A stretch of DNA of 33,716 bases from Acidobacteriota bacterium. Lineage in GTDB: Bacteria > Acidobacteriota > Thermoanaerobaculia > Thermoanaerobaculales > Sulfomarinibacteraceae. A program made the translations under genes and the position numbers. Under the pieces are notes generated by a model. It saw nothing but the letters and a program-made list of their open reading frames with translations. It was not told where the DNA came from and did no database searches. The stretch lies in assembly GCA_013152925.1 (NCBI GenBank), contig JAADFK010000022.1, positions 1 through 33,716 of the forward strand, given 5' to 3'. Within the stretch, counting starts at the first letter, position 1. Each line of letters begins with the position of its first letter. Positions 5,263 through 29,467 of the stretch are shown piece after piece.

Positions 5263-6504
5263 TCAGGAATCCTGTTGGTCGGGACGTCCCGCCGTGCCTC
5301 GCGGAATCCAGGCGCGTGCGACGGCGCCGCTCCGGTCCCGGCGCCGCTTGAGCGTCAGCCGGCCGCCGTGAGCCTCGGCAATGGAGCGTGAGAGTGTCAG
5401 ACCGATCCCCATTCCATCGGGTTTCGTCGTGTAGAACGGCACGAAGACGTCCTCCCCGTCCGGTGGACCCGGGCCACAGTCCAGGATCTCGAACTCGACG
5501 CCACCGTCACGCAGCTGCCAGCGGACCCTCACGCCACCTCCTTCCGCGGTTGCCTCCACCGCGTTGCGAAGGAGGTTGAGGAGCATCTGCTCGAGCAACG
5601 TGACGTCCCCTGGCACCACCACGTCCGGCCCACCAACAACCTCCACCGCCGGGTGCCCCAGCAGGTTGGCCACCCGGGCCAACAGATCGCGTACCCGCAC
5701 GGGCGCCGGACGGGGCCGGGGCAGCCCCGCCAGGCGGCTGTAGCCCCGCACAAACCGGGTGAGCGCCTCGCCGCGGGATCGGATGGCCGAGAGGCCCTGT
5801 CGGAGGTCGTCCCGCCACCCTTCGGGCGGGTCCGATCGCTCCAGCAATCCGTGGAGAGATTCCGCGAGCGAGGTGATGGGTGCCAACGAGCCGCCCAGCT
5901 CGTGACCCAGCACCTCGAGCAAACGCCACTGGCCCATCCGCTCCCCATCGCGCCGGGCACGGCCCACGTCGGCCACCACGAGCAGTGTGTGCTCCCTCCC
6001 GTGGACACGAACCGGACGTCGCCGAACTTCCCAATAACCACGCCCGCCCGGAAGCTCGAGATCGGCCGGCTGGTCCTCTCCGAGCTTCTCGAGCGGCTCG
6101 AGGTGAAGCTCCGGGAGAGAACGGCCCAGGCACGCCCCGGGCCGTTCTCCGGCGAGTCGCGCCGCAGCGCGGTTCACCCACCGCGTCCGACCACGGGCAT
6201 CGAGCACCAGCAGGGCCACGTCGAGAGCATCGGTCACCCGTTCCAGGAGTGCCGTGCGCTCGGCCTCCCGGAGCCGTCTGTCTTGCAGGCGGGTGGCGAG
6301 GCGATCAAGGGCAGCGGCAAGCTCCGCGTGGACGCCCTGGGCGGCACGTCGTCCAACACGAACTTCGAGATCACCCTCGGCGAGGGCGGCGATCACCGCC
6401 GTCAGGTCGGCAACCTCACGCCGCGTTCGGCCAAGCACGAGCAGCACGACCGAACCGAACACCGCTGGAATGACCAGGCACGCGAGGATTCCAAGGCCGC
6501 TCAC
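5263..6504 (-). CDS. NtrY/NtrB-like sensor histidine kinase with PAS domain
   Basis: A 413-residue kinase with one N-terminal membrane segment (about residues 5-25), a HAMP-like/helical stretch to ~90, a PAS domain ~90-185, then HisKA with the phospho-acceptor in VLGHELGGSLAPI (His ~201). The ATPase domain has the N box LLNLLRNAVEA, and G boxes DCGPGPP and GMGIGLTLSRSI. The ending FVPFYTTKPDGMGIGL is typical of NtrB/NtrY-type kinases paired with sigma-54 activators. There is no periplasmic loop, so the signal is probably sensed by the PAS domain or within the membrane. Its GTG start overlaps the stop of the upstream regulator gene (GTGA, 4 bp), implying translational coupling and a cognate pair. 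As the last gene of the efflux operon it probably feeds back on the operon's own promoter. Confidence 0.9.
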   Translation of the reverse strand: MSGLGILACLVIPAVFGSVVLLVLGRTRREVADLTAVIAALAEGDLEVRVGRRAAQGVHAELAAALDRLATRLQDRRLREAERTALLERVTDALDVALLVLDARGRTRWVNRAAARLAGERPGACLGRSLPELHLEPLEKLGEDQPADLELPGGRGYWEVRRRPVRVHGREHTLLVVADVGRARRDGERMGQWRLLEVLGHELGGSLAPITSLAESLHGLLERSDPPEGWRDDLRQGLSAIRSRGEALTRFVRGYSRLAGLPRPRPAPVRVRDLLARVANLLGHPAVEVVGGPDVVVPGDVTLLEQMLLNLLRNAVEATAEGGGVRVRWQLRDGGVEFEILDCGPGPPDGEDVFVPFYTTKPDGMGIGLTLSRSIAEAHGGRLTLKRRRDRSGAVARAWIPRGTAGRPDQQDS

Positions 6505-7868
6505 GGCCGCTCCAACCCGTGTTTCTGCATTCTCCGATACAACGCCTGCCGGCTCAGGCCCAGCTGACGGGCAGCCTCGGCGATATTGCCCCGGGTTCGA
6601 GCCAGAGCGCGCGCGATGAGCTGGCGTTCCGTGGCGTGGAGGCCAACGCCCTCCGTCTTGCCAGCCGGCTCCGCGGGAAGCCAGAAGTCAGAGGGCCGGA
6701 TGCGGTCGTTGGGGGCCAGGATCACGGCGCGCTCCACCACATGCTCGAGCTCCCGTACGTTTCCCGGCCAAGAGTATGTGGCAAGCTGCTCGAGCGCCTC
6801 CGGCGAGAACCCCAGATGCTGGCGATGGTGGCGGCGCGCAAACCGCTCCAGGAACAGGTGGGCCAGGACGGGGATGTCCTCGGGTCGCTGGCGCAACGGT
6901 GGCAGCCGGATCTCGACGACATTGAGTCTGTAGAGGAGATCCTCCCGGAACCTCCCGGCCGACACTTCCTTCACCATGTCACTGTTGCTTGCGGCCATGA
7001 TCCGAACATCCACACCCCTCGTTCGTGAGGAGCCCACGGGCTCGAATTCACCCGTTTCGAGCACGCGGAGGAGCTTCGCCTGGGCCGCGGGGGAAGCGGT
7101 GGCGATCTCGTCGAGGAAGAGCGTGCCCCCGTCGGCGAGGTCGAAACGTCCGAGACGCATCTCGGCGGCGCCCGTGAACGCTCCTCGGGTGTGTCCGAAG
7201 AACTCGGCCTCGAAAAGGCTCTCGGGGACGGCACCGACGTTCACGGTGATGAACGGTTCCCGGCAGCGGCGCGAGAGAGCATGCAGCATGCGCGCGACAA
7301 CGCCTTTCCCCGTTCCCGACTCCCCAAGAATCAGCACGTTCGCCTCGGTGGGGGCCGTCCGGTGGACGAGGTCGAGCACCCGGAGCATGGCGGGTGATTC
7401 GGAGACGATGTCAGGCAAGCCGGCCTCGCGGAGCAACCGGTTTTCCGCCTCCAACCGCCGGCCCGAGCGAACCGCCCGGGCAAGCTCGGCGTGTGTCCGG
7501 AGCAATGCCACCAGCCGGGACCCCTGCCACGGCTTCTGAACGAAGTCCTTGGCTCCACGCCGCATTGCCTCCACGGCAAGTGGTACGGTCCCCCAGGCTG
7601 TCATGACAATGACCGGCAAGGTGTCGTCCACGCTGCCGAGCCAGCGAAGCAGATCGATTCCTTCGTCCCCCGACGTGGCACCACGGGTGAAATTGAGGTC
7701 GACCAGCGCCACGTCGAACTCCTGGATCCGCACGAGCTCTTGAACGTCATCCGGCGTGGCAGCCTCCGTGACCTCGAAACCCTCGTCACGCAGGAGAAGG
7801 CGCAACGCCGTTCTCACGTCCGCCTGGTCGTCGGCGATCAACGCCCGGGCTGGGTTCTCAGATGACAT
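6501..7868 (-). CDS. NtrC-family sigma-54-dependent response regulator
   Basis: A 455-residue enhancer-binding protein. Receiver domain ~8-125 with acidic pair DD (13-14), phospho-acceptor Asp57 in ALVDLNF, and Lys112. AAA+ domain ~155-380 with Walker A GESGTGKG (~182-189), the sigma-54 contact loop GAFTGA (~229-234), Walker B GGTLFLDEI, and the arginine-rich WPGNVRELEHV region. C-terminal Fis-type helix-turn-helix ~415-455 (RGNIAEAARQLGLSRQALYRRM). The intact GAFTGA and Walker motifs mean it should open sigma-54 promoters. Sigma-54-type promoters flank a dyad-rich region at 12254-12509, at the head of its own operon and of the divergent peptide operon; these are its most obvious targets (inference). 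It starts 13 bp after the permease stop and overlaps the kinase gene by 4 bp. Confidence 0.95.
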   Translation of the reverse strand: MSSENPARALIADDQADVRTALRLLLRDEGFEVTEAATPDDVQELVRIQEFDVALVDLNFTRGATSGDEGIDLLRWLGSVDDTLPVIVMTAWGTVPLAVEAMRRGAKDFVQKPWQGSRLVALLRTHAELARAVRSGRRLEAENRLLREAGLPDIVSESPAMLRVLDLVHRTAPTEANVLILGESGTGKGVVARMLHALSRRCREPFITVNVGAVPESLFEAEFFGHTRGAFTGAAEMRLGRFDLADGGTLFLDEIATASPAAQAKLLRVLETGEFEPVGSSRTRGVDVRIMAASNSDMVKEVSAGRFREDLLYRLNVVEIRLPPLRQRPEDIPVLAHLFLERFARRHHRQHLGFSPEALEQLATYSWPGNVRELEHVVERAVILAPNDRIRPSDFWLPAEPAGKTEGVGLHATERQLIARALARTRGNIAEAARQLGLSRQALYRRMQKHGLERP

Positions 7869-7881
7869 GGATTCCGCCTCA

Positions 7882-10269
7882 CTACTCGTGGCGTAGCGCC
7901 ATTGCTGTATCCACGAAGGTCACGCGCAGAGCGCCTGGCAGGGCTCCGAGGAGACCGGAAAGAGCGGCCGCGACGAGTATGGCCATCGCGAGAGCTGCCG
8001 TTGGAATCTCCAACCCTGGGATGCGGGAAGCCACGTACCACGCTCCACCAATTCCTGCGCTCACTCCCACGGCGGCCGCGGGGACAACCACCCGTGCCAC
8101 CTCGGCGAGGAGATCGCGGACGAGGCGGCCGGGCGTAGCACCGCACGCCGCGCGGATGCCCAGCTCTCGGCGCCTCTGGACGATCCAGAACGTCACCAGA
8201 CCATAGACGCCGCCACACGCGAGGGCGAGCGCCGCAATGGTCAGGCCCAGGAGCACCCTCCGCAGCAAGAGCGTGTTCTCCAGGCTTGCCCGAATCCGTG
8301 CAGAGAGCCGCTGGGGTCTGCGGACAATGACCTGGCAACCAACATCATTCACGGCACGGCGGAGCAGCCCCAGGAAACGTTCCGGCTCGGTGGAGGTCCT
8401 CGCAACCACATAGGGAGGCGTCATTGAACGTACCACGGCAAACGCTCCCCCCAGCTCCATTCCGAACGGCAGGTACAGCGTGGGCGGGGGTGGCTTTGCC
8501 GGCCCCTCCGCCAGGACATCGGTCGCGATTCCGACCACGGTCACCATGGTGTTCCCAGGAGAGAACTCCTCGCCGAGAGCCAGTCGCCGGCCCAAACGGG
8601 GTTGCTGCCACAGGCTTCGGGCCAGCCCACGGCTGACAATCGCGATGGGAGCACCGGCGCGGGTCTCGCCGGCGCTGAAGCTTCTGCCGTCGAGGATCGG
8701 AATGGCGAGGACGTCGAAGTACCTCTCCGTCACATACTGGACGCGCACCCGCAGGTGTCGTCCATCGGAGCTGACGACGTCAACATCCGAACGGGTTTCC
8801 CCGAGGGGCACGCCCGTCGACAGTGCCGTCCGTCCCAGTGTACCCCGGAGCCGATGGTAGACCTCCAGTTGCTGCTCCAGCGTGAACTTGGGCCCATGCG
8901 GCACGGGTAGAAGCAGGGAGGTGCTCACACCCTGGGGACGGAACCCCAGTGGAACCTGGACGAGCCGGCCCGCACTCCGGGTTACCGCCGCGGTGACCGT
9001 CAGCACTCCGGCAGCCATGGCAACCTCGAGTGCCACCAGGAGCCGGCGCATCCGTCCGGCCCACCGTCCGCCGCCTGACAACGATCCGACTCCCTTGAGC
9101 AGGGCGGCGTAGGAAACGCGGAGAACGGCCAGCGTGGCTGGCAACGCAGCCGCCAAGGCGGCTGCCGTCGCCACCACGACAACAATGAGGATCACCCACC
9201 GATCCACATGAACCGGGATGACCTGGGGCAACGAGCCGGTGAGTGAACGCCCCAGCCATCGCTGGACCGCCGCTGCCGCACCAAGGCCTACTGCAGTTCC
9301 CACCACGGCGAGCAAAGCGGCCTCGAGCACGACGAGACGCACCACGGTCCATGGCCGCGCGCCCACGACGACGCGCACGGCGAGCTCCCCGCCGCGGGCA
9401 TCGGTTCGGGCCAGCAACAGGATGGCGAGGTTGCACGCGGCCAGGACGGCGATCAGCCACGCGATGCCCAGAAGCGTTCGCAGAGGGCCCTCCGCGGACC
9501 CCAGGATCGCATGCCGCAGCGGCATCACCACGGGACTCACTTCACGGTTGTGCAGTAACGCTCCGAGCTCGTGGCGCACCGCCCGCCACGATGCCGGAGG
9601 GGCCCGGTGAACGAGGATCACCAGATCCCTGGAGCGGACACCCGCCGCAGATGTTGGTTGGCGGTACGGCAAGTACAGGTCGGGTCGCACCGTCTTTCCC
9701 AATGTTCCCGGGAAGGTGAAACCACGCCGGAGCACGCCGACGACCCGGCAGGGAGCGCCGTCGATTCTGACCGTGCGCCCGAGGATGGCCGGATCGGCAC
9801 CGAACCGGTGTTGCCACGTCCGCCACGCCAGAACCACAACTCGGGGAGCTCCGGCCGCGGCGTCCTCGGGGAGCAACAACCGTCCCAGCGAGCTGGTCGC
9901 TCCGAGGAGCCCGAACGCCCCCGGGGTCACGTTGGCCGCAGAGACGAGCTCGAGATCACCGCCCCCTCCGAGCGCCAACCAACGAACGGCGTACCCCTCG
10001 GCGCGATCAACGGTCCGGGCAGCGGACCGGAGGGTCTGGAGTGTCTCGTAAGATCCCGGGCCCTCCCCCCACGAGCCACGGAGCCCCACTTCGCCGAGCA
10101 GGCGGGCTTCGGGGTAGGCCAGCGGCCGGAGCAGGAGCGAGCCCGCCACGGCAACGAGAACAGAGACCACGAACATCGCCACTGCCAGCAGGCCGACCGC
10201 AGAAACGGTCAGCGCAGGCCGGCGGGAGAGTGCGGCCAGCGTGAAGCGGAAATCGTGATCGAGCACCAT
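7882..10269 (-). CDS. MacB/FtsX-type ABC transporter permease, duplicated form
   Basis: 795 residues with two MacB-like modules in tandem: an N-terminal membrane helix (~18-45), a large periplasmic domain, three helices (~265-390), a central helix (~415-435), a second periplasmic domain, and three C-terminal helices (~665-790). Both halves carry the FtsX signature after a membrane helix: ARTDARGGELAVRVVVGA and QRRRELGIRAACGATPGR. This 8-helix duplicated layout matches permeases abundant in Acidobacteria. MacB-type systems do not import; they work with a membrane-fusion protein to expel peptides, antibiotics or lipophilic molecules from the periplasm or membrane. The ATPase stop lies 2 bp upstream and the adaptor gene precedes it, so all parts of a MacAB-like pump except an outer-membrane channel are present. 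Substrate unknown. Confidence 0.9.
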   Translation of the reverse strand: MVLDHDFRFTLAALSRRPALTVSAVGLLAVAMFVVSVLVAVAGSLLLRPLAYPEARLLGEVGLRGSWGEGPGSYETLQTLRSAARTVDRAEGYAVRWLALGGGGDLELVSAANVTPGAFGLLGATSSLGRLLLPEDAAAGAPRVVVLAWRTWQHRFGADPAILGRTVRIDGAPCRVVGVLRRGFTFPGTLGKTVRPDLYLPYRQPTSAAGVRSRDLVILVHRAPPASWRAVRHELGALLHNREVSPVVMPLRHAILGSAEGPLRTLLGIAWLIAVLAACNLAILLLARTDARGGELAVRVVVGARPWTVVRLVVLEAALLAVVGTAVGLGAAAAVQRWLGRSLTGSLPQVIPVHVDRWVILIVVVVATAAALAAALPATLAVLRVSYAALLKGVGSLSGGGRWAGRMRRLLVALEVAMAAGVLTVTAAVTRSAGRLVQVPLGFRPQGVSTSLLLPVPHGPKFTLEQQLEVYHRLRGTLGRTALSTGVPLGETRSDVDVVSSDGRHLRVRVQYVTERYFDVLAIPILDGRSFSAGETRAGAPIAIVSRGLARSLWQQPRLGRRLALGEEFSPGNTMVTVVGIATDVLAEGPAKPPPPTLYLPFGMELGGAFAVVRSMTPPYVVARTSTEPERFLGLLRRAVNDVGCQVIVRRPQRLSARIRASLENTLLLRRVLLGLTIAALALACGGVYGLVTFWIVQRRRELGIRAACGATPGRLVRDLLAEVARVVVPAAAVGVSAGIGGAWYVASRIPGLEIPTAALAMAILVAAALSGLLGALPGALRVTFVDTAMALRHE

Positions 10270-10271
10270 GG

Positions 10272-10970
10272 TTATGCCACCTGCCGGATCTCGTCCACGA
10301 TGTGGCCGTCGTAGATATGAAGGACCCTGTCCGCAACCCCCGCGTATTCCGGGTTGTGGGTCACCAGGATCACCGTCGTTCCCTCCCGGTGGAGCCGCTC
10401 CAGGAGCTCGATGACGGCCGCCCCGGACGCCGAGTCCAGATTGCCGGTGGGCTCGTCGGCTAGGATCAGCTGGGGACGGGTGACCAGCGCTCTCGCCACC
10501 GCGGAACGTTGCTGCTGTCCTCCCGAGAGCTGCCCCGGATAGTGCCGCGCGCGGTGGAGAAGATCCACCTGGTGGAGGACCTCCTCGACCCGTTGCCGCC
10601 GCTCACGTGCCTTCACGCCACGGTAGACGAGCGGCAGCTCCACGTTCTCCTCCACAGTCAGCTCTGGAATCAGGTTGAAGGTCTGGAAGACAAAACCGAG
10701 GTAACGATTCCGGAGCTGTGCCAGAGCTCGTGCCCCGAGTCCGCTCGTGTCACGGCCCGCGAGCAGATACCGCCCCTGGGTCGGCCGTTCCAGCAGCCCG
10801 AGAACGAAGAGCAACGAGCTCTTGCCGCTGCCCGACGGACCCATGATGCACACGAGCTCCCCCGGGCGCACCGTGAGGTGGATCTGTCCGAGCGCATGGG
10901 TGGCGATCTGGGTTGTGGTGTAGACCTTGCTGACATTCTCGAGCCGAATGAGCACATCATCATCAGCCAT
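10272..10970 (-). CDS. ABC transporter ATP-binding protein (MacB/LolD-like)
   Basis: A 232-residue single ATPase domain. Walker A GPSGSGKSS (~44-52), Q-loop FQTFNLIPELTVEENVELPL, signature LSGGQQQR, Walker B LILADEPTGNLD, and H-loop VTHNPEYA. The phrase ADEPTGNLDS and the length are typical of the MacB/LolD/FtsE subgroup that powers FtsX-type permeases. It lies 9 bp after the membrane-fusion gene, with AAGGAGGT directly before its ATG, and 2 bp before the permease gene. This is the cytoplasmic motor of the pump. Confident family call. Confidence 0.95.
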   Translation of the reverse strand: MADDDVLIRLENVSKVYTTTQIATHALGQIHLTVRPGELVCIMGPSGSGKSSLLFVLGLLERPTQGRYLLAGRDTSGLGARALAQLRNRYLGFVFQTFNLIPELTVEENVELPLVYRGVKARERRQRVEEVLHQVDLLHRARHYPGQLSGGQQQRSAVARALVTRPQLILADEPTGNLDSASGAAVIELLERLHREGTTVILVTHNPEYAGVADRVLHIYDGHIVDEIRQVA

Positions 10971-10979
10971 ACGACCTCC

Positions 10980-12230
10980 TTACCGCTCGGCGAGCCGGAT
11001 CCTTCGAACGTTCTTCCACGGACCGGGTTCTGACACGATGACCCGGTCTCCGGGTTTCAGTCCGGCAACCACCTCGGCATACCGGGCTGAGAGTCGGCCC
11101 AGCCGCACCCGGACCCGCTCCGCCCCTCGTCCCACCCTGTCCAGCCGGTACAGCTGCAGCTCGCCGCCCGCCGTTGCGCCGGCGGGCAGCTCCACATACA
11201 GCGCGTCGGGTACCTCGGTGAGCACGATATCTCCCTCCACTGCGAGATCCGGCCGGGCTCCCGCGGGCAGCCGGGCCGGCAGAGCGGCCTCCACTTCCAC
11301 GAATCCGCCCACCACGGTCGGATCCACCCTCGTTACATGTCCTTTCACCTTCGTTCCGGCCACATCCAGCTCGACACGTTGGCCGCGCGCCACCCGGGCC
11401 GCATCGCGTTGTGCGATCTTGAGGCGAGCGACCATGGCGCCACCACCCGCAACCCGGGCGAGGTGAGCGCCGGCCGCCACCCGTTGCCCGGGCTCCACCA
11501 GCACCCGCTGAACCACACCCGTGATGCCGGCCCGCACGTGGAGAGCCGTGACCCTCGCACGAGCACGCACCGCCGCGCTCTCCAGCTCACGGACACGCGC
11601 CTGGAGCTCCCGCAGACGCGCCGCCCCCGTGCGTCCCACCACCTCGAGACGTTTCCGTTCGAGCTCGAGGTCACGCTCGAATTGCGCCACGTCGAGCCTG
11701 GCCTTACGGAGCGTGATGTCGGGTACCAGGCCACGATCACGAAGCTCCTGATCGGCTTCAAGATCGATCTTCGCCTTTTCCAGGGCGGACTCCGCCCGCG
11801 CCACGGCCGCTTCCTGGTCGAACCGGTCCCGCTCCACCCGTGCCTTTGCTTCGGTCAGCGTTGCGCGTTCGGCCCGGAGCCGGAGCTCGGCCTCGGCAAG
11901 GGCACTCTCAAGCTCCGGATTGGCCAGCTCCACCACCTCCGATCCGGGTCGCACCCGGGTTCCTGGCGGCGCCAGGATGCGCTTCACCACGGCAGGTCCC
12001 GGAGCTGCCAGCCACAGGCTCGAGGCCGGCTCGAGAACGCCGTGCGCACTGACACCAATCCGGAACGTTCCCTTCCGGACCGTGCCGATCCAGACCTCCG
12101 ATCGCGGCACCGTCGGAGCGTGCAGCAACCGGGCGCCGAGGGCAACTGCCACGAGGACACCGATCCCCGCCGCCGGGATCAGCCAGCGCCCGCGCCTCCG
12201 CGACTCGCCGGAAGTCAGTGGAAGATCCAT
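10980..12230 (-). CDS. HlyD/MacA-like periplasmic adaptor (membrane-fusion protein)
   Basis: 416 residues. An N-terminal membrane anchor (~14-33) follows a basic stretch (SRRRGRW). Then comes a split lipoyl/barrel-sandwich domain (~50-90 and ~215-260), separated by a long charged coiled-coil hairpin (~95-215, rich in Glu/Arg/Ala), then beta-barrel and membrane-proximal domains (~265-400; LKPGDRVIVSEPGP near the end). These are the parts of MacA/HlyD adaptors that bridge an inner-membrane pump to an outer-membrane channel. It is the first gene of the minus-strand operon MFP-ATPase-permease-NtrC-kinase. A sigma-54-type promoter lies 24 bp before the ATG. No TolC-like channel gene is in the window. 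Confidence 0.9.
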   Translation of the reverse strand: MDLPLTSGESRRRGRWLIPAAGIGVLVAVALGARLLHAPTVPRSEVWIGTVRKGTFRIGVSAHGVLEPASSLWLAAPGPAVVKRILAPPGTRVRPGSEVVELANPELESALAEAELRLRAERATLTEAKARVERDRFDQEAAVARAESALEKAKIDLEADQELRDRGLVPDITLRKARLDVAQFERDLELERKRLEVVGRTGAARLRELQARVRELESAAVRARARVTALHVRAGITGVVQRVLVEPGQRVAAGAHLARVAGGGAMVARLKIAQRDAARVARGQRVELDVAGTKVKGHVTRVDPTVVGGFVEVEAALPARLPAGARPDLAVEGDIVLTEVPDALYVELPAGATAGGELQLYRLDRVGRGAERVRVRLGRLSARYAEVVAGLKPGDRVIVSEPGPWKNVRRIRLAER

Positions 12231-12253: not shown

Positions 12254-12269
12254 AGCAAGAATCGTACCA
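12254..12269 (-). promoter_or_regulatory. Candidate sigma-54 promoter of the efflux/two-component operon
   Basis: On the minus strand the sequence reads TGGTACG, 4 bases, TTGCT. It matches the sigma-54 -24/-12 consensus TGGCACG-N4-TTGCW at all fixed positions except one (T for C in the -24 element), with exact GG-to-GC spacing. A start near 12243 would give a leader of about a dozen bases before the ATG at 12230. The operon encodes a sigma-54 activator, consistent with autoregulation. Confidence 0.65.
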
Positions 12270-12368
12270 GCTCATCGTACCCGCTCCCGCCCCGAGATCA
12301 CGGCCCTGTGTTCCTGGGACGAGAGCCCTTCCTTGGGAAATCCCATGAACCTCATGACATCCCACTGA

Positions 12369-12386
12369 CCGTCCGGATCCGGACGG
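12369..12386. promoter_or_regulatory. Perfect 18-bp palindrome in shared control region (candidate activator site)
   Basis: CCGTCCGGATCCGGACGG is a perfect palindrome. It lies about 100 bp upstream of the minus-strand sigma-54 promoter and about 108 bp upstream of the plus-strand one. This is the usual distance for enhancer sites of NtrC-type activators. Its arms share the GTCC/GGAC core with the next dyad. Confidence 0.5.
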
Positions 12387-12397
12387 ATGGTATAAAA

Positions 12398-12423
12398 GCG
12401 GACAGTTGTCCGACACTGTCCGC
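12398..12423. promoter_or_regulatory. 26-bp dyad with CGGACA/TGTCCG half-sites (candidate NtrC-type enhancer)
   Basis: GCGGACAGT (12398-12406) and ACTGTCCGC (12415-12423) form perfect 9-bp arms around an 8-base spacer, and the spacer itself contains another TGTCCG. Three half-sites result: CGGACA at 12399, TGTCCG at 12407 and TGTCCG at 12417. Multiple inverted half-sites midway between divergent sigma-54 promoters suggest an enhancer for the NtrC-family regulator encoded at 6501-7868. Binding is inferred. Confidence 0.55.
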
Positions 12424-12493
12424 AACCTCTCCGGAGCCGGACGATCCGCTGGCTGAACCAATTTTCGTCGGCCCTTCCCAACCAAAGCGCCAC

Positions 12494-12509
12494 TGGCATG
12501 TGCCTTGCA
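12494..12509 (+). promoter_or_regulatory. Candidate sigma-54 promoter of the peptide-modification operon
   Basis: TGGCATG, 4 bases, TTGCA: only one mismatch (T for C in the -24 element) to TGGCACG-N4-TTGCW, with correct spacing. A transcript would start near 12521, about 55 bases before the precursor ATG. No better sigma-70-type promoter is obvious in front of this operon. Confidence 0.7.
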
Positions 12510-12575
12510 GATGTCCCGGCCGAGCTTGCCCGGGCAGAGCGAACAATCTCACGAGAAAGGAGGTGAAACGCAATC

Positions 12576-12725
12576 ATGCATGATGATATCATTCCCGATG
12601 TTCTCACCGATCTCAACGTCATCTCGAGCTACGCTGATCTGCAGGCGGCGCCTGCGGCGCACAGTCACACGCATACGTGCAACGTGCTCGGGGTGATCGA
12701 TGCCGACACTGACACGGCCGAATAG
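12576..12725 (+). CDS. Small RiPP-type precursor peptide (49 residues)
   Basis: Encodes 49 residues: MHDDIIPDVLTDLNVISSY, then ADLQAAPAAHSHTHTCNVLG, then VIDADTDTAE. The start is supported by a strong ribosome-binding site, AAAGGAGGTGA at 12556-12566, nine bases upstream of the ATG. The acidic, amphipathic N-terminal half looks like a leader. The C-terminal half has a His/Thr/Ser cluster (HSHTHT), a single Cys (35) and an Asp/Thr-rich end, which could be the modified core. The next gene is a radical SAM/SPASM maturase with a PqqD-like recognition domain, followed by an ABC exporter, the classic context for a ribosomally made, post-translationally modified peptide. I recognise no known precursor family. 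The modification, cleavage site and activity are unknown; AA-P-AA around residues 24-28 is one possible leader boundary. Confidence 0.75.
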   Translation: MHDDIIPDVLTDLNVISSYADLQAAPAAHSHTHTCNVLGVIDADTDTAE

Positions 12726-12739
12726 CCGTGTCACGAACC

Positions 12740-12768
12740 GGCGGGGTGGTCGTGGAGGCCACCCCGCC
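12740..12768 (+). terminator. GC-rich hairpin between precursor and maturase (attenuator-like)
   Basis: GGCGGGGTGG (12740-12749) and CCACCCCGCC (12759-12768) form a perfect 10-bp stem with a 9-base loop, starting 15 bases after the precursor stop. No T-run follows, so it is not a full rho-independent terminator. Partial termination or 3'-end protection of the precursor message would make more peptide than enzyme, as in many peptide operons. Its position also argues that the maturase starts downstream, at 12785. Confidence 0.55.
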
Positions 12769-12784
12769 TTCCTCGGGGGTGGAT

Positions 12785-14260
12785 ATGCAGGCGCTAGCTG
12801 AGGGTAACCACGGGAGACCAACGTCATCCGGCGGGAAACACGTACTTGCCCAGGCGCAAAGAACACCTCGGCCCGTTCCGGGTACGCGGTTTGAATCAAT
12901 TGACCTTCCCGGCGGGGAGCAAAGATACCGTCTTTTCAATCCCCTTCACGCGACTTTTGCTCTCCTGAACGAAGCAGGGAAGCTCATCGCCGCGGAGGTC
13001 AACGGCACCCGGTCAGTTTCGCAGCTTGCGACCATGCTGACGCGAAAAGAACCGGCATTGCCTCTTGAAGTTGCCATGGAAAGCGTCGTGGACTTTCTGG
13101 ACAGGCTCACGGCGCAGAAGCTTCTCTATTGGGACGACCAGACACCACCACCGATTCTTGAAACGACATCGTTAGATCGCCTTGAAGAAGTGTGGCTCAA
13201 CCTGACCAACCGGTGCAATCTCCGATGCATCACGTGCTTCAAGGATGCCGGCCCTGCGTACAAATCAGAGCTCAGCACGCAGGAATTGGTGGATTTGATC
13301 GATCAGATTCCTAGCCTCGTCACGGGGCGTGTCATCTTGTCGGGCGGCGAACCTCTGTTGCGCGAGGACGTTGATCTCATCCTTGAGGCGTTGGCGAAAC
13401 GCAATCTCGAGATCTTCATCATCACAAACGGTACCCTGATCGACCGTTCACGCGCCGAACGCCTGGCGCGCCTGCCTCACCTCGTCGTGCAGGTGAGCCT
13501 TGATGGATCGTGCCCGGAGGTAAATGACGGTATTCGGGGTTCTGGCAGTTTCGAGCGCGCGCTTGCAGGCGCAAGAAACCTCGCTGAGCTCGGAGTGGAT
13601 GTGAGAATCTACCCCACCGTAACCAAGCTCAACATCGAAGATCTCCCCCAGCTGCAACGCCTCTACAAGACGCTACGCCAGGATGATCGGCGCTTCGCGT
13701 TCGCCCGTTTTCACCCAACTGGTCGAGGAGCACGCCACTTTCGCGAGCTGTATATTCCTCCTGGTGAGTTCTTGAAACGTATTGCACGCATGAAGTTGGA
13801 TGGCACGCGGAAACCGGATGATGGAACCGCGCGCCGGGCTTTCAAGGACTTCATTCCGCGTAGAGTCATTTATGGCGTCCGTAAGGTCAATTGTGGCCTT
13901 GGTTCAGGAACGCTCTCGATCGACGCCGACGGAACGGTTTATCCATGTCACTGGCTCCATGACCGCCAATTCGCTGCTGGCGACTTGCGAAGGAATACGC
14001 TTGCGGAGATCTATTTCGCATCCACCCCACTGCGACGGTTCCGCGACCTGCGGGTGGACGGGCAGATTACGGCCTGCACGAACTGCGATGTCCGGTACCT
14101 GTGTGGCGGCGGTTGTCGGGCACGAGCTCTTGCCTTCACCGGCGATATTGCTGGACTTGACCCCGAGTGTGAGCTGATGCAAACAGCTTTCCGACGAGGA
14201 CTTTGGTGCGCTCCGATGTGGGAGCTGGACGACGATCATCGCGAGGAGGTGCAGGCATGA
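12785..14260 (+). CDS. Radical SAM/SPASM peptide maturase with N-terminal PqqD-like domain
   Basis: 491 residues from the ATG at 12785; an in-frame GTG at 12728 would give 510 but runs through the hairpin, whereas GGGGGT precedes 12785. Residues ~47-119 (RYRLFNPLHATFALL to KLLYWDD) resemble the PqqD-like RRE that binds leader peptides. The radical SAM motif CNLRCITC places the 4Fe-4S ligands at 144, 148 and 151, followed by LSGGEPLLRED and ITNGT. The C-terminal SPASM domain has Cys at 370, 388, 431, 434, 440, 444 and 462 (CTNCDVRYLCGGGC), enough for two auxiliary clusters. Such enzymes make thioether, C-C or related crosslinks on precursor peptides. The stop overlaps the transporter start (ATGA). 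G+C is clearly lower than flanking genes. The reaction cannot be predicted. Confidence 0.93.
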   Translation: MQALAEGNHGRPTSSGGKHVLAQAQRTPRPVPGTRFESIDLPGGEQRYRLFNPLHATFALLNEAGKLIAAEVNGTRSVSQLATMLTRKEPALPLEVAMESVVDFLDRLTAQKLLYWDDQTPPPILETTSLDRLEEVWLNLTNRCNLRCITCFKDAGPAYKSELSTQELVDLIDQIPSLVTGRVILSGGEPLLREDVDLILEALAKRNLEIFIITNGTLIDRSRAERLARLPHLVVQVSLDGSCPEVNDGIRGSGSFERALAGARNLAELGVDVRIYPTVTKLNIEDLPQLQRLYKTLRQDDRRFAFARFHPTGRGARHFRELYIPPGEFLKRIARMKLDGTRKPDDGTARRAFKDFIPRRVIYGVRKVNCGLGSGTLSIDADGTVYPCHWLHDRQFAAGDLRRNTLAEIYFASTPLRRFRDLRVDGQITACTNCDVRYLCGGGCRARALAFTGDIAGLDPECELMQTAFRRGLWCAPMWELDDDHREEVQA

Positions 14261-15993
14261 TTGTCGGACGTTTCCGTCGAGAGCGGCGGCTTCTCGAGCT
14301 ATTGGGTCCACTTCCTGGGCCTGACAGGCGCCGACTGGCGGTCGTGATCGCCATGCTTGCCGCCTCTGCCCTGCTTCGTCTTCCGGTCCCCGTGTTGACT
14401 CAGACCCTCATCGACCGGGTTATTGCGGGCGGGCAGGCCAACTTGCTTCCTCCGCTTGCTGCGGCGTTGATCGTGGTTTCGGCGTTTCAACTGCTGCTTC
14501 ACGTGTCGAAGGGAAAGCGGTTGGCCACGCTTCGCGAGGCGGTGACCGCCCGTTTCCATCACAGGCTCGTGGCTCACCTTCTCCGGCTCTCGCCAACGGT
14601 CATCGCCGAGAAGACTCCAGGATACCTGACCTCTCGTGTGGCGAGCGACGCCACGGCCGCAGGCCGGTTGCTGTCGGATTCGGTGCTGCGTCTCCTGCTT
14701 GATGCTCTCACCTTTGTGTTTGGTCTGGGATTGATGGTGCATTACGAGGCTCGATTGGCGGGACTTACCCTCGTGCTGGTACCCGTCTATGCGCTCGCAG
14801 TATTCCGCTTCGGAGAAGAGGTGAGAGAACGGTCACATGCAACTCTTGAGGCCACGGCCGCGATCCAGCGGGAGCTCCTGGATCTGGTTCGCAACGTTCC
14901 TCTTGCGTTACTCCACAATGCCGCTGGTTTTCTTGCCGAGCGGCACGAGCGGGCCTGGGGACGCGGTGTCACGGCCAGGCTGAGACTTGCCGACACACTG
15001 TTCCGCTCCACAGGGGTGACCGCATTCCTCTCCGGGTTGGCTCCCGTCGTCGTGCTGGTGGTTGGCGGAATCGAGGCAATGAACGGCCAGTTGTCGGTTG
15101 GTGGGCTGGTGGCATTCCTCGGGCTTGTGGGATACGTCTTCAATCCGGTGCAACGAGCGGCGTCGACTCGCCTCGAATTCCGACGGGCATTGGCCGCGCT
15201 CGAGCGGGCTGAGGAGCTGTTCAGGCTTCCGACGGGCATTCTGGAGCGACCAGACGTGCAGATCCTCGTTCATCCGGTGGGACACGTGGAGCTGCGCGAA
15301 GTGTGGTTTGCCTTTCGGGACAATGAGCCGGTGTTGCGCGGGGTGAATCTGGAGGCCGCGCCAGGAGAGCTTGTGGCCCTCACCGGTCCCAGTGGCGTGG
15401 GCAAGACCACCGTATTGTGGCTCGTTGCACACCTGCTCGAACCTGATGAGGGGATGGTGCTTCTTGACGGGATCGATGTCAGACGCCTGGCACCGGCCTC
15501 GGTACGTGCCTGCGTAACTATGGTTCCACAACCCGCAATGCTTCTCGATGCCACGATCCGTGACAACATACTTCTCGGCCGAACCAGTTACTCGGAAGCC
15601 GATGTCATCCTTGCGGCAGAACGTGCCAACGCCCTCGATTTCGTTCGCGGTCTGCCAAATGGTTTCGACACCCCAATTGGTGAGGGCGGTGCTCGCGTTT
15701 CCGGAGGGGAGGGCCAACGAATTGCCCTCGCACGGGCACTTCTCGAGCCAGCGCCAGTGGTACTTCTTGATGAGCCGTCGACATACCTCGACGGCGAATC
15801 GCGGGAAGCGCTTCGGGAAGCTCTGCTGGCGTTACGCACCGATCGCACTGTCATTGTGGTCACCCACGATCCGCGGCTTCTCAGCCTGGCGGACCGCGTC
15901 GTAACCTTGGAGGCGGGGCGTGTGGTACCAGGGCACCAGTGTGACACCGACACTGCTTTCTCGGATGCGATCCATCCGGTCGCCAGTGCGTGA
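14257..15993 (+). CDS. ABC exporter, fused membrane and ATPase domains
   Basis: 578 residues. Type-1 exporter fold: about six membrane helices in residues 25-290, then an ATPase domain with Walker A GPSGVGKTT (~377-385), Q-loop VPQPAMLLDATIRDNILLG, signature VSGGEGQRIALARALL (~482), Walker B VVLLDEPSTYLDGE and H-loop VTHDP. It lacks the N-terminal C39 peptidase domain of bacteriocin exporters, so leader removal needs another protease. The ATG at 14257 overlaps the maturase stop and has GAGGAGGTG just upstream; an in-frame extension to 14203 would only overlap the maturase. It probably exports the modified peptide as a homodimer. Reduced G+C matches the maturase. Confident as an exporter; substrate inferred from position. 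Confidence 0.93.
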   Translation: MIVGRFRRERRLLELLGPLPGPDRRRLAVVIAMLAASALLRLPVPVLTQTLIDRVIAGGQANLLPPLAAALIVVSAFQLLLHVSKGKRLATLREAVTARFHHRLVAHLLRLSPTVIAEKTPGYLTSRVASDATAAGRLLSDSVLRLLLDALTFVFGLGLMVHYEARLAGLTLVLVPVYALAVFRFGEEVRERSHATLEATAAIQRELLDLVRNVPLALLHNAAGFLAERHERAWGRGVTARLRLADTLFRSTGVTAFLSGLAPVVVLVVGGIEAMNGQLSVGGLVAFLGLVGYVFNPVQRAASTRLEFRRALAALERAEELFRLPTGILERPDVQILVHPVGHVELREVWFAFRDNEPVLRGVNLEAAPGELVALTGPSGVGKTTVLWLVAHLLEPDEGMVLLDGIDVRRLAPASVRACVTMVPQPAMLLDATIRDNILLGRTSYSEADVILAAERANALDFVRGLPNGFDTPIGEGGARVSGGEGQRIALARALLEPAPVVLLDEPSTYLDGESREALREALLALRTDRTVIVVTHDPRLLSLADRVVTLEAGRVVPGHQCDTDTAFSDAIHPVASA

Positions 15994-27179: not shown

Positions 27180-27195
27180 GACGGGAGCGCGCACC

Positions 27196-27238: not shown

Positions 27239-29467
27239 ATGAGAAGGCTCCTCGCCATACTGATCATCGTGGCGGCCGCCGCCACGCCGGGCCTGGCCTC
27301 CAACGAGGACGACCTGACATCCCTGAGCTACATCTCCTACATGGAACGGTATGCAACCGTCCGGTCGGCCTCGCAGACGGAAAGCGCCGAGGCCGTGATC
27401 AACATGCCGCTGATCCCCGGCGACCGGCTCGATACGGCCCGGGAGGCGCGGGTCGAGGTTCAGCTGGCCGACGGCTCGACACTCTGGCTCGACGAGTACA
27501 CCTCCGTTTCCTTCGACGCCCTCGCCTTCAGCCGGGGCGATGCCGCCGACCGCACCGTGCTTTTCTTCGGAGACGGCGGCATGGTCCTGGAGATTCCCAC
27601 CACGGCGTTGACCTCCAAACCCACCCGCGTCGACACGGCCTCCTCCACGGTGTACCTCTCACGCCCCGGAATCTACCGGCTGGAGGCACTGCGCAACGGC
27701 GGCCTCCGTGTCGAGGTGTGGAACGGCCACGCCGAGGTGGCGACCCCGGAGGGGGGCGCCGCCATCGAGGCCGGCTCGGCCGCCGAGGTCGCTGCGGGCA
27801 GTGTGGAACGTACCGAGGCGGTGCTGACCCGCGACGATGCCTTCGCGCGGTGGGTCGAGGGGCGCCGCCAACCCGGCGGCGGCAACGCGGACCTCCACAT
27901 GGACGAACGCTACGCACGCCAGGAGGCCGTCCTCGACAGTTACGGCGGGTGGATCTACGTGGACGATCTGGGCGGCTACGCCTGGCAGCCAACGGTCAGC
28001 GCGGGATGGACGCCATACACCTATGGACGGTGGGGTTGGACTCCCGCCGGCTGGTCCTGGATCTCGTACGAACCCTGGGGATGGATGCCGTACCACTACG
28101 GGAGCTGGTACTTCAGCGTCGGTTTCGGCTGGGTGTGGAGCTGGGGGTCGTACTGGGGTCCGGCCTGGGTGGACTGGGCCTGGTGGCCCGGTTACGTGGG
28201 GTGGTGCCCCATGGGGTACTACGACCACTGGTACTGGAATCGCTATCCCGGCTACCCCACGACCCCGGGTCATCCGTCGCCCCATCCCGGGGCTCGTGAC
28301 CGCGTTCCGGGGCCGATCAACGGCGTCGGTCGCCCCGGGACCCGCCCTCCCATCCGGGTGGACCGTTTCGCCCTGGGCTTCGAGGGCCGCGCACGGCTGC
28401 GCGACGTGGATCCACGAGGCTGGAACGTGGTCCGGGCCGACGATTTCACCAACCCCCACCTGCCTCGCCTGGTCACTCCGGGCCGCGACGTCTTCCCGCG
28501 TCTTTCGCCGGACGTTCGGGGTGTTGTCCGGGCCGGCCCCCTGCTGACGGCACGTCCCACCGCCAGGAACGTCGGCACCGCCATTCAGCGGCCCTTCCGC
28601 GAGGCCGGGAACCGGGCCTCGAAGGACCTGACACCCATCCTCGCCCGCGACCCCTCACTGCCCGCCGCCCGGGCCGGGGAGCTGGTTCGGCCGACCACAC
28701 AGTCAGGGCTCATACGGTCGGCCCGCGAGCGCTCCGGCCTCAGCGGCGCCCTGCGGTCGGACGGCCGTTCCACCGGGGGTGGCCATCTCTCCTCGACCAC
28801 GCCGTCACGGACGGTCCGGGGCCCCGGGGGGCTCGGCACCCTCCCACGCAACACCAACCTCTACCGCCCCACCCTCCGGCATACCGGAGACGGCTCGGTG
28901 GTCCCCACGACCCGTGGCCGGTCCGGCCTGAGCCGCCCGGCGTCCACGGACCCGCGGCGGAGCGGATCCGTTTCGCCGTCCCGCTCCTCGCCGTCGCCGG
29001 CGACGAGCCCCCGGCATTCGGGCGAGATCGTCCGGCCCAATCCAACGAGCCGGGACCCGGTCCACCTTCGCGGGGGATCCCTCCGGACGCCTGCGGGCCG
29101 GCGGGAGCCGCTCACGAATTCCCGCAGCGGGGATACCACCGGTTCCTACGGCGGTTTCGTCCGGCCGGCCCCGCGCAGCAATACGCGGTCCGCTTCCCCC
29201 GGCGCCAGCCGCCCATCGTACGGCGGCTTCCTCCGGCCCTCGACACCGAGCAGACCCTCGTCGCGGAGCTACAGCAGGCCCTCCTCGCGGAGCTACAGCA
29301 GACCATCGTCGCGGAGTTACAGCAGACCATCGTCGCGGAGCTACAGCAGGCCATCGTCGCGGAGCTACAGCCGGCCATCGTCGCGGAGCTACAGCAGGCC
29401 ATCGTCACGAAGCTACAGCAGGCCCTCCGGGTCCAGCTCACACCGCTCCTCCGGCAGGCGTCATTGA
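27239..29467 (+). CDS. Exported FecR-domain/DUF6600-like protein with C-terminal SRPSSRSY repeats
   Basis: 742 residues. Signal peptide ~1-21 (ending GLA). A FecR-like beta domain (~45-190) has the typical MPLIPGDRLDTAREARVEVQ and LADGSTLWLDEYTSVSF. Then comes a strikingly Trp/Tyr/Gly-rich region (~235-340: repeated GW.PY.YGRW, EPWGWMPYHYGSW), as in DUF6600 proteins of Acidobacteria and Proteobacteria. Residues ~345-670 are low-complexity, Arg/Ser/Pro/Gly-rich and basic. Seven exact-length SRPSSRSY repeats (671-726) precede a GSSSHRSSGRRH end. It is presumably secreted or surface-bound; the basic tail could bind acidic polymers or nucleic acid (inference). No known function. A sigma-54 promoter directly precedes it. 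Confidence 0.85.
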   Translation: MRRLLAILIIVAAAATPGLASNEDDLTSLSYISYMERYATVRSASQTESAEAVINMPLIPGDRLDTAREARVEVQLADGSTLWLDEYTSVSFDALAFSRGDAADRTVLFFGDGGMVLEIPTTALTSKPTRVDTASSTVYLSRPGIYRLEALRNGGLRVEVWNGHAEVATPEGGAAIEAGSAAEVAAGSVERTEAVLTRDDAFARWVEGRRQPGGGNADLHMDERYARQEAVLDSYGGWIYVDDLGGYAWQPTVSAGWTPYTYGRWGWTPAGWSWISYEPWGWMPYHYGSWYFSVGFGWVWSWGSYWGPAWVDWAWWPGYVGWCPMGYYDHWYWNRYPGYPTTPGHPSPHPGARDRVPGPINGVGRPGTRPPIRVDRFALGFEGRARLRDVDPRGWNVVRADDFTNPHLPRLVTPGRDVFPRLSPDVRGVVRAGPLLTARPTARNVGTAIQRPFREAGNRASKDLTPILARDPSLPAARAGELVRPTTQSGLIRSARERSGLSGALRSDGRSTGGGHLSSTTPSRTVRGPGGLGTLPRNTNLYRPTLRHTGDGSVVPTTRGRSGLSRPASTDPRRSGSVSPSRSSPSPATSPRHSGEIVRPNPTSRDPVHLRGGSLRTPAGRREPLTNSRSGDTTGSYGGFVRPAPRSNTRSASPGASRPSYGGFLRPSTPSRPSSRSYSRPSSRSYSRPSSRSYSRPSSRSYSRPSSRSYSRPSSRSYSRPSSRSYSRPSGSSSHRSSGRRH
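29249..29416 (+). repeat. Seven tandem 24-bp units coding SRPSSRSY
   Basis: Seven complete 24-base copies (consensus start AGCAGGCCATCGTCGCGG, then AGCTAC) followed by a partial eighth. Copies differ at only one to three bases, mostly silent, so the array is young or kept uniform. It lies inside the FecR/DUF6600 gene and keeps its frame; changes in copy number would alter tail length by eight residues without frameshift. Confidence 0.95.

Follow-up and report, generated by a model that had tools for sequence, protein, structure and literature searches.

A putative histidine- and aspartate-motif peptide precursor heads a radical SAM/SPASM and exporter operon in an Acidobacteriota bacterium

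Introduction

We report here on a small gene of 49 codons and the operon that it heads in an Acidobacteriota bacterium of the family Sulfomarinibacteraceae (GenBank assembly GCA_013152925.1). The DNA analysed, referred to as the window, is a stretch of 33,716 nucleotides (contig JAADFK010000022.1, positions 1 to 33,716, forward strand). An earlier interpretation of these letters, called below the sequence-only reading, had proposed that the small gene encodes the precursor of a new family of ribosomally synthesised and post-translationally modified peptides (RiPPs), which would be modified by a radical S-adenosylmethionine (SAM)/SPASM enzyme with a PqqD domain and exported by an ATP-binding cassette (ABC) transporter.

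Results

The precursor operon

The operon comprises the following features, in which RRE stands for RiPP recognition element, TMD for transmembrane domain and NBD for nucleotide-binding domain:

12557..12566, + strand: Shine-Dalgarno sequence AAGGAGGTGA; the ATG of the precursor gene lies 9 nt further on
12576..12725, + strand: putative precursor peptide, 49 aa, encoding MHDDIIPDVLTDLNVISSYADLQAAPAAHSHTHTCNVLGVIDADTDTAE
12740..12768, + strand: perfect hairpin GGCGGGGTGG/CCACCCCGCC, 12 bp when folded, between precursor and maturase
12785..14260, + strand: putative maturase with RRE-like (PqqD-type), radical SAM and SPASM domains; longest frame from GTG 12728
14257..15993, + strand: ABC exporter, TMD and NBD; overlaps the maturase end (14260) by ATGA

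The small gene with its strong ribosome-binding site was found as the sequence-only reading had described it, and so were the radical SAM/SPASM enzyme (Pfam Radical_SAM, E=7e-27; SPASM, E=2e-10) and the exporter that overlaps it. The maturase probably starts at ATG 12785 rather than at GTG 12728, because the Shine-Dalgarno-preceded start of its homologue aligns there. In Pfam the exporter contains no C39 peptidase domain. It is very probable that the operon serves RiPP biosynthesis and export.

A second copy of the precursor was searched for in the window's own genome and none was found. The window precursor has no match in Pfam, PHROGs, the PDB or plasmids, and neither it nor the homologue described below matches a model in NCBIfam (E up to 10), in agreement with the earlier claim that the peptide fits no known family.

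A homologous locus in another class

A search of 396 genomes of the phylum gave a single close homologue of the maturase, in genome G298 (41% identity, E=1.5e-123; next best 3.6e-49), which belongs to another class of the phylum than the window genome. At this locus (L057) a precursor, a maturase and an exporter (34% identity to the window exporter) succeed one another on one strand, followed by a B12-type radical SAM gene and an ADOP permease. The frame of about 50 codons upstream of the G298 maturase, MPYEPPKGLSDTQVLSSILEMSAIAPGHTHKHGSGASVSFDSDSDTTPVLLD, is preceded by the strong ribosome-binding site AAAGGAGGGG.

The two precursors align over 41 amino acids without gaps (E=1e-7 in BLASTP of this one pair), with a Smith-Waterman score of 69 where the maximum over 20,000 shuffles is 52, and none of the 1,905 small frames taken from the fetched loci scores better than the G298 precursor. 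The first, second and third codon positions show identities of 0.51, 0.56 and 0.37, respectively, and 8 of the 14 identical residues are encoded by different codons. Since the third codon positions are the least conserved, the precursor is conserved at the protein level. The sequence-only reading had named the lack of a conserved upstream frame, or conservation of the DNA only, as what would speak against it; both points turned out in its favour.

Common to both peptides are a leader block, L-[TS]-D-x2-V-[IL]-S-S, and a core block, HxHxH-x8-DxDxDT. Searched as a DNA pattern, the core block matched 2 of the 396 genomes, both at the precursor loci, with one match for the reversed control. The core had been proposed to combine a His motif, a single Cys and an Asp/Thr-rich tail; the His and Asp/Thr parts are exactly those conserved, but Cys35 of the window peptide is not shared, the G298 precursor having no Cys at all. 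On these sequence grounds, the precursor is a member of a previously unnamed, very rare family of alternating His and Asp, of which one other member was found.

In G298 a hairpin is also present between precursor and maturase, at the equivalent place. A rho-independent terminator after the precursor was rejected, as the hairpin is not followed by a T run; it could at most be an attenuator or stabiliser. An Rfam search gave no match. Directly before the larger hairpin, an inverted repeat of 9 bp (TGACACGGC/GCCGTGTCA, 12710-12733) spans the precursor stop codon.

The additional gene of the G298 locus is as follows:

L057 4887..7040, - strand: B12-type radical SAM protein, encoded immediately behind the G298 exporter

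Its product is closest to ApyD (237 bits vs a cutoff of 750), an enzyme that methylates the C-beta of Tyr in a RiPP (PMC10635010), and may represent a lineage-specific tailoring step. The window genome holds only a partial match to it (27%), elsewhere in the genome. ADOP permeases occur near both loci; their mutual identity is only 25% and they were rejected as evidence of linkage. In the window's own genome, matches to B12-type and SPASM-type radical SAM proteins adjoin at another site (G000:C192 4416-6667, loci L081 and L006).

The maturase

Both maturases carry the full set of cluster Cys, CxxxCxxC and all seven SPASM Cys (CNLRCITC; C-x12-G-x4-C; C-x2-C-x5-C-x3-C; and the later Cys462). The PqqD domain claimed earlier proved borderline in the window enzyme, where the Pfam score of 22.1 bits falls just under the curated cutoff of 23.4; the claim is backed by the G298 homologue, which scores above it (31.6 bits), and by the predicted structure. 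Indeed, the AlphaFold model (mean predicted local distance difference test (pLDDT) 80, 16 sequences) shows a b3-a3 RRE/PqqD-like fold at residues 35-110, with a pLDDT of 82-92 in this block. The best solved structures found with Foldseek were CteB, SuiB (including its precursor-bound form) and SkfB, all peptide maturases, and the matches to CteB and SuiB extend over about 460-480 columns.

Rarity and distribution

A profile built from the two maturases was run against the class of G298 (162 genomes), that of the window genome (149) and a small class (41), where it gave no further member, and against another large class (399 sampled), where it gave one weaker match (G311), without such a peptide upstream; the genome sets overlap, the larger searches scored the top few candidates per genome, and absence is not proven. 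With a single sequence, the search of genome contigs returned remote archaeal radical SAM proteins only. A search of plasmids for the maturase gave only distant matches, mostly annotated as MftC. The core motif gave 13 matches in viral contigs, none beside a maturase relative as judged by tblastn and several in repetitive sequence, which were taken as chance. Among other radical SAM proteins of 25-36% identity, the upstream small frames were checked for HxHxH or DxDxD and none was convincing. The presence of the carriers in different classes suggests horizontal movement or frequent loss.

Other radical SAM loci were seen along the way. At about 545-1317 of locus L036 (G072:C17), two neighbouring radical SAM/SPASM genes of the PqqD type have in front of them a tandem run of four small frames, which carry MLNPMAF[IV]PED and CxCGW-type motifs and look like a separate Cys/Gly/Trp RiPP family. 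The protein encoded at locus L003 (G000:C57) has >1,000 residues and is a fusion of radical SAM with DUF5714 and a methyltransferase domain; matching open frames, about 1,060-1,110 aa long, occur in several family members.

The divergent operon and its putative control

Upstream of the precursor operon and divergent from it lie the following features:

12493..12509, + strand: sigma-54 promoter candidate CTGGCATGTGCCTTGCA, which would serve the precursor operon (16/17, simple consensus score)
12398..12423: inverted repeat GCGGACAGT-8-ACTGTCCGC, candidate enhancer site
12369..12386: palindrome CCGTCCGGATCCGGACGG, candidate enhancer site
12254..12270, - strand: sigma-54 promoter candidate CTGGTACGATTCTTGCT, which would serve the divergent operon (16/17, simple consensus score)
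10980..12230, - strand: HlyD/MacA-like periplasmic adaptor
10272..10970, - strand: ABC ATPase, best NCBIfam model DarD/MacB-like, below cutoff
7882..10269, - strand: ADOP-type MacB/FtsX permease
6501..7868, - strand: NtrC-type sigma-54 response regulator
5263..6504, - strand: PAS histidine kinase

The gap between the precursor operon and the divergent HlyD operon is 345 bp, with one sigma-54-type promoter candidate per strand. When it was shuffled 20,000 times with dinucleotides preserved, 6 shuffles on one strand and 14 on the other attained the sigma-54 score, and none did so on both. Two more 16/17 sites occur in the window, at 9888 (-) inside the ADOP permease gene and at 27195 (+) near a gene end. 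The two perfect inverted repeats are located between the promoter candidates, an estimated 110-170 bases or so from the presumed starts, a spacing that is usual for enhancer sites.

Elsewhere, a genome of another genus (G002) has a near-perfect sigma-54 promoter (L082, G002:C247, 745-761) just 5' of an HlyD/ATPase pair homologous to the window divergent operon, the only fetched locus outside the window with such a site. Furthermore, a sigma-54 activator gene lies directly 5' of the precursor in G298. We infer that the precursor operon and the divergent operon (12230-5263) are co-regulated, and the latter is probably part of the functional unit.

At 27239-29467 the window also encodes a FecR/DUF6600 protein with a long C-terminal SSRSYSRP repeat tail.

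Discussion

The features described above can be arranged into a proposed pathway. The kinase/NtrC pair would sense a signal and switch on both operons, and the hairpin between precursor and maturase would cause the precursor to be made in excess. The RRE-like domain would capture the leader around L-T-D-L-N-V-I-S-S, after which the radical SAM centre would take hydrogen from the core and join residues, with a loss of 2 Da per link. The modified product would then be exported by the ABC exporter and its leader cleaved by an unlinked protease.

Regarding the reaction itself, the most likely single chemistry, tentatively put forward, would be C-C links from a His imidazole to the C-beta two residues on, within HxHxH. 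This chemistry is favoured because HxHxH fits published i,i+2 His links: the SPASM enzymes HaaB and YhhB, and similarly ScaB, join His C2 to a nearby C-beta and belong to a class characterised by i,i+2 links, and the bicyclostreptin precursor, with its His-Gly-His, is a substrate of the radical SAM enzymes HghB/HghC (PMC11002830). Considering aromatic residues or His with a C-beta partner at i+2, HxHxH is compatible in both peptides, which is not in itself evidence of a link. Thioether and indole or phenol crosslinks are disfavoured because, His apart, the family conserves neither Cys nor any aromatic residue. No paper connecting an HxHxH precursor with radical SAM was found in the open literature. 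Since radical SAM chemistry on His motifs is already known, the reaction may be a variant of known chemistry, not one without precedent, and "new", as the sequence-only reading had it, is to be qualified. The precursor's lack of a described family is well supported.

Several observations weigh against this interpretation. The family consists of two members and its conserved positions are thus weakly resolved; the DNA pattern for HxHxH-x8-DxDxDT was built from those two peptides, and its matches measure specificity, not independent discovery. The maturase matches no characterised three-residue cyclophane-forming enzyme (3-CyFE) family specifically, and its best NCBIfam models, StsB, MftC and WgkB, are all far under cutoff. 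No protease gene is linked to the cluster, and the extra B12-type gene of G298 is absent from the window. The sigma-54 promoter match in G298 is weak (14/17), and the z-scores of the hairpins are modest (-1.7 and -1.5). Finally, DxDxDT is conserved as strongly as HxHxH and is left unexplained by His crosslinking. This last point also favours the main rival to i,i+2 His chemistry, in which the enzyme of the same RiPP system acts on the DxDxDT tail or on a backbone C-alpha, for instance by epimerisation, the His only binding metal in the product. SPASM enzymes commonly act on backbone carbons (review PMC8326336), but nothing positive points to any particular residue and the tail could instead belong to recognition or to a metal site; we consider this rival unlikely, if a serious one.

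The other explanations are weaker. A thioether from Cys35 to a backbone or side-chain carbon, as in sactipeptides and ranthipeptides and as the sequence-only reading had suggested, could draw on the top NCBIfam model, the sactipeptide maturase StsB (NF045574), on the top fold, the thioether-forming CteB, and on the one Cys of the window peptide. Nevertheless the StsB scores (182 bits for the window, 202 for G298) are far under the cutoff of 625, and with a homologous precursor devoid of Cys a thioether is not the chemistry of the family but at most a lineage-specific addition, which makes this proposal improbable. Still less probable is a redox-cofactor pathway of the pyrroloquinoline quinone (PQQ) or mycofactocin kind, where the peptide would be broken down to yield a small molecule. 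PqqE is the best PDB phmmer match of the maturase and MftC its second NCBIfam model, but the MftC scores of 162 (window) and 185 bits (G298) lie under the cutoff of 265, the conserved Glu-Tyr or Val-Tyr substrate residues are absent, both loci have a dedicated exporter, and there are no dehydrogenase or peptidase partners. The hairpins directly after the small frame might be read as a sign that it encodes a regulatory leader peptide, or is open by chance, the enzyme having another substrate; protein-level conservation that reaches the C-terminal core and strong Shine-Dalgarno sequences at both loci leave this idea with very little likelihood.

Among known systems, the His-motif triceptides (HaaB, YhhB, ScaB) share with the window a SPASM radical SAM enzyme, a small precursor and a core His with candidate i+2 partners; compared by reported motifs, they differ in having His-Ala-Ala (HaaB, ScaB) or Tyr/His with Arg (YhhB) instead of HxHxH and DxDxDT. 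Bicyclostreptin (HghA, with a conserved His-Gly-His) also shows radical SAM chemistry at closely spaced His with an RRE, but uses two radical SAM enzymes, HghB and HghC, and a separate RRE protein, HghD, under streptococcal quorum rather than sigma-54 control. The His-Xaa-Ser system (HxsA/B/C) likewise pairs a His-rich precursor with radical SAM partners, whereas HxsA is a His-Xaa-Ser repeat protein with two such partners. The family peptides have no NCBIfam match to HxsA and a single H-x-S (H-G-S, in G298 only), which does not qualify them as HxsA, and HxsB and HxsC are absent from the best 25 NCBIfam models for the maturase.

The RRE-like, radical SAM and SPASM architecture is that of the CteB, SuiB, SkfB and StsB-type maturases, although identity to the CteB, SuiB and SkfB structures is 15-18% and the chemistry of CteB, SkfB and StsB needs Cys and that of SuiB Lys/Trp, neither of which is conserved here. 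In the darobactin dar operon a radical SAM-modified peptide also lies beside an HlyD-like adaptor, a DarD-like ATPase and a MacB-type permease. In the window, however, this transporter is divergent and ADOP-type (DarD 254 bits vs a cutoff of 375; DarC 42 vs 450), a separate one-protein exporter is present in the RiPP operon, and the peptide contains no Trp.

A possible functional analogue is noursin, a His-butyrine crosslinked peptide that binds copper and is made by a lanthipeptide synthetase, not by a radical SAM enzyme (PMC10206099). Metal binding by an imidazole-rich crosslinked product would be plausible here too. A fuller version, in which consecutive HxHxH links couple neighbouring His and DxDxDT completes the metal site, giving a His/Asp metal-binding peptide made by one enzyme under sigma-54 two-component control, is doubtful.

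The conserved core of this family lacks Cys, Trp, Tyr and Phe, the residues used by most known radical SAM RiPP crosslinking. The reaction would thus be hard to predict by precedent, yet easily tested with a short peptide, one enzyme and clear mutants, while the putative sigma-54 two-component link would provide a handle on the inducer.

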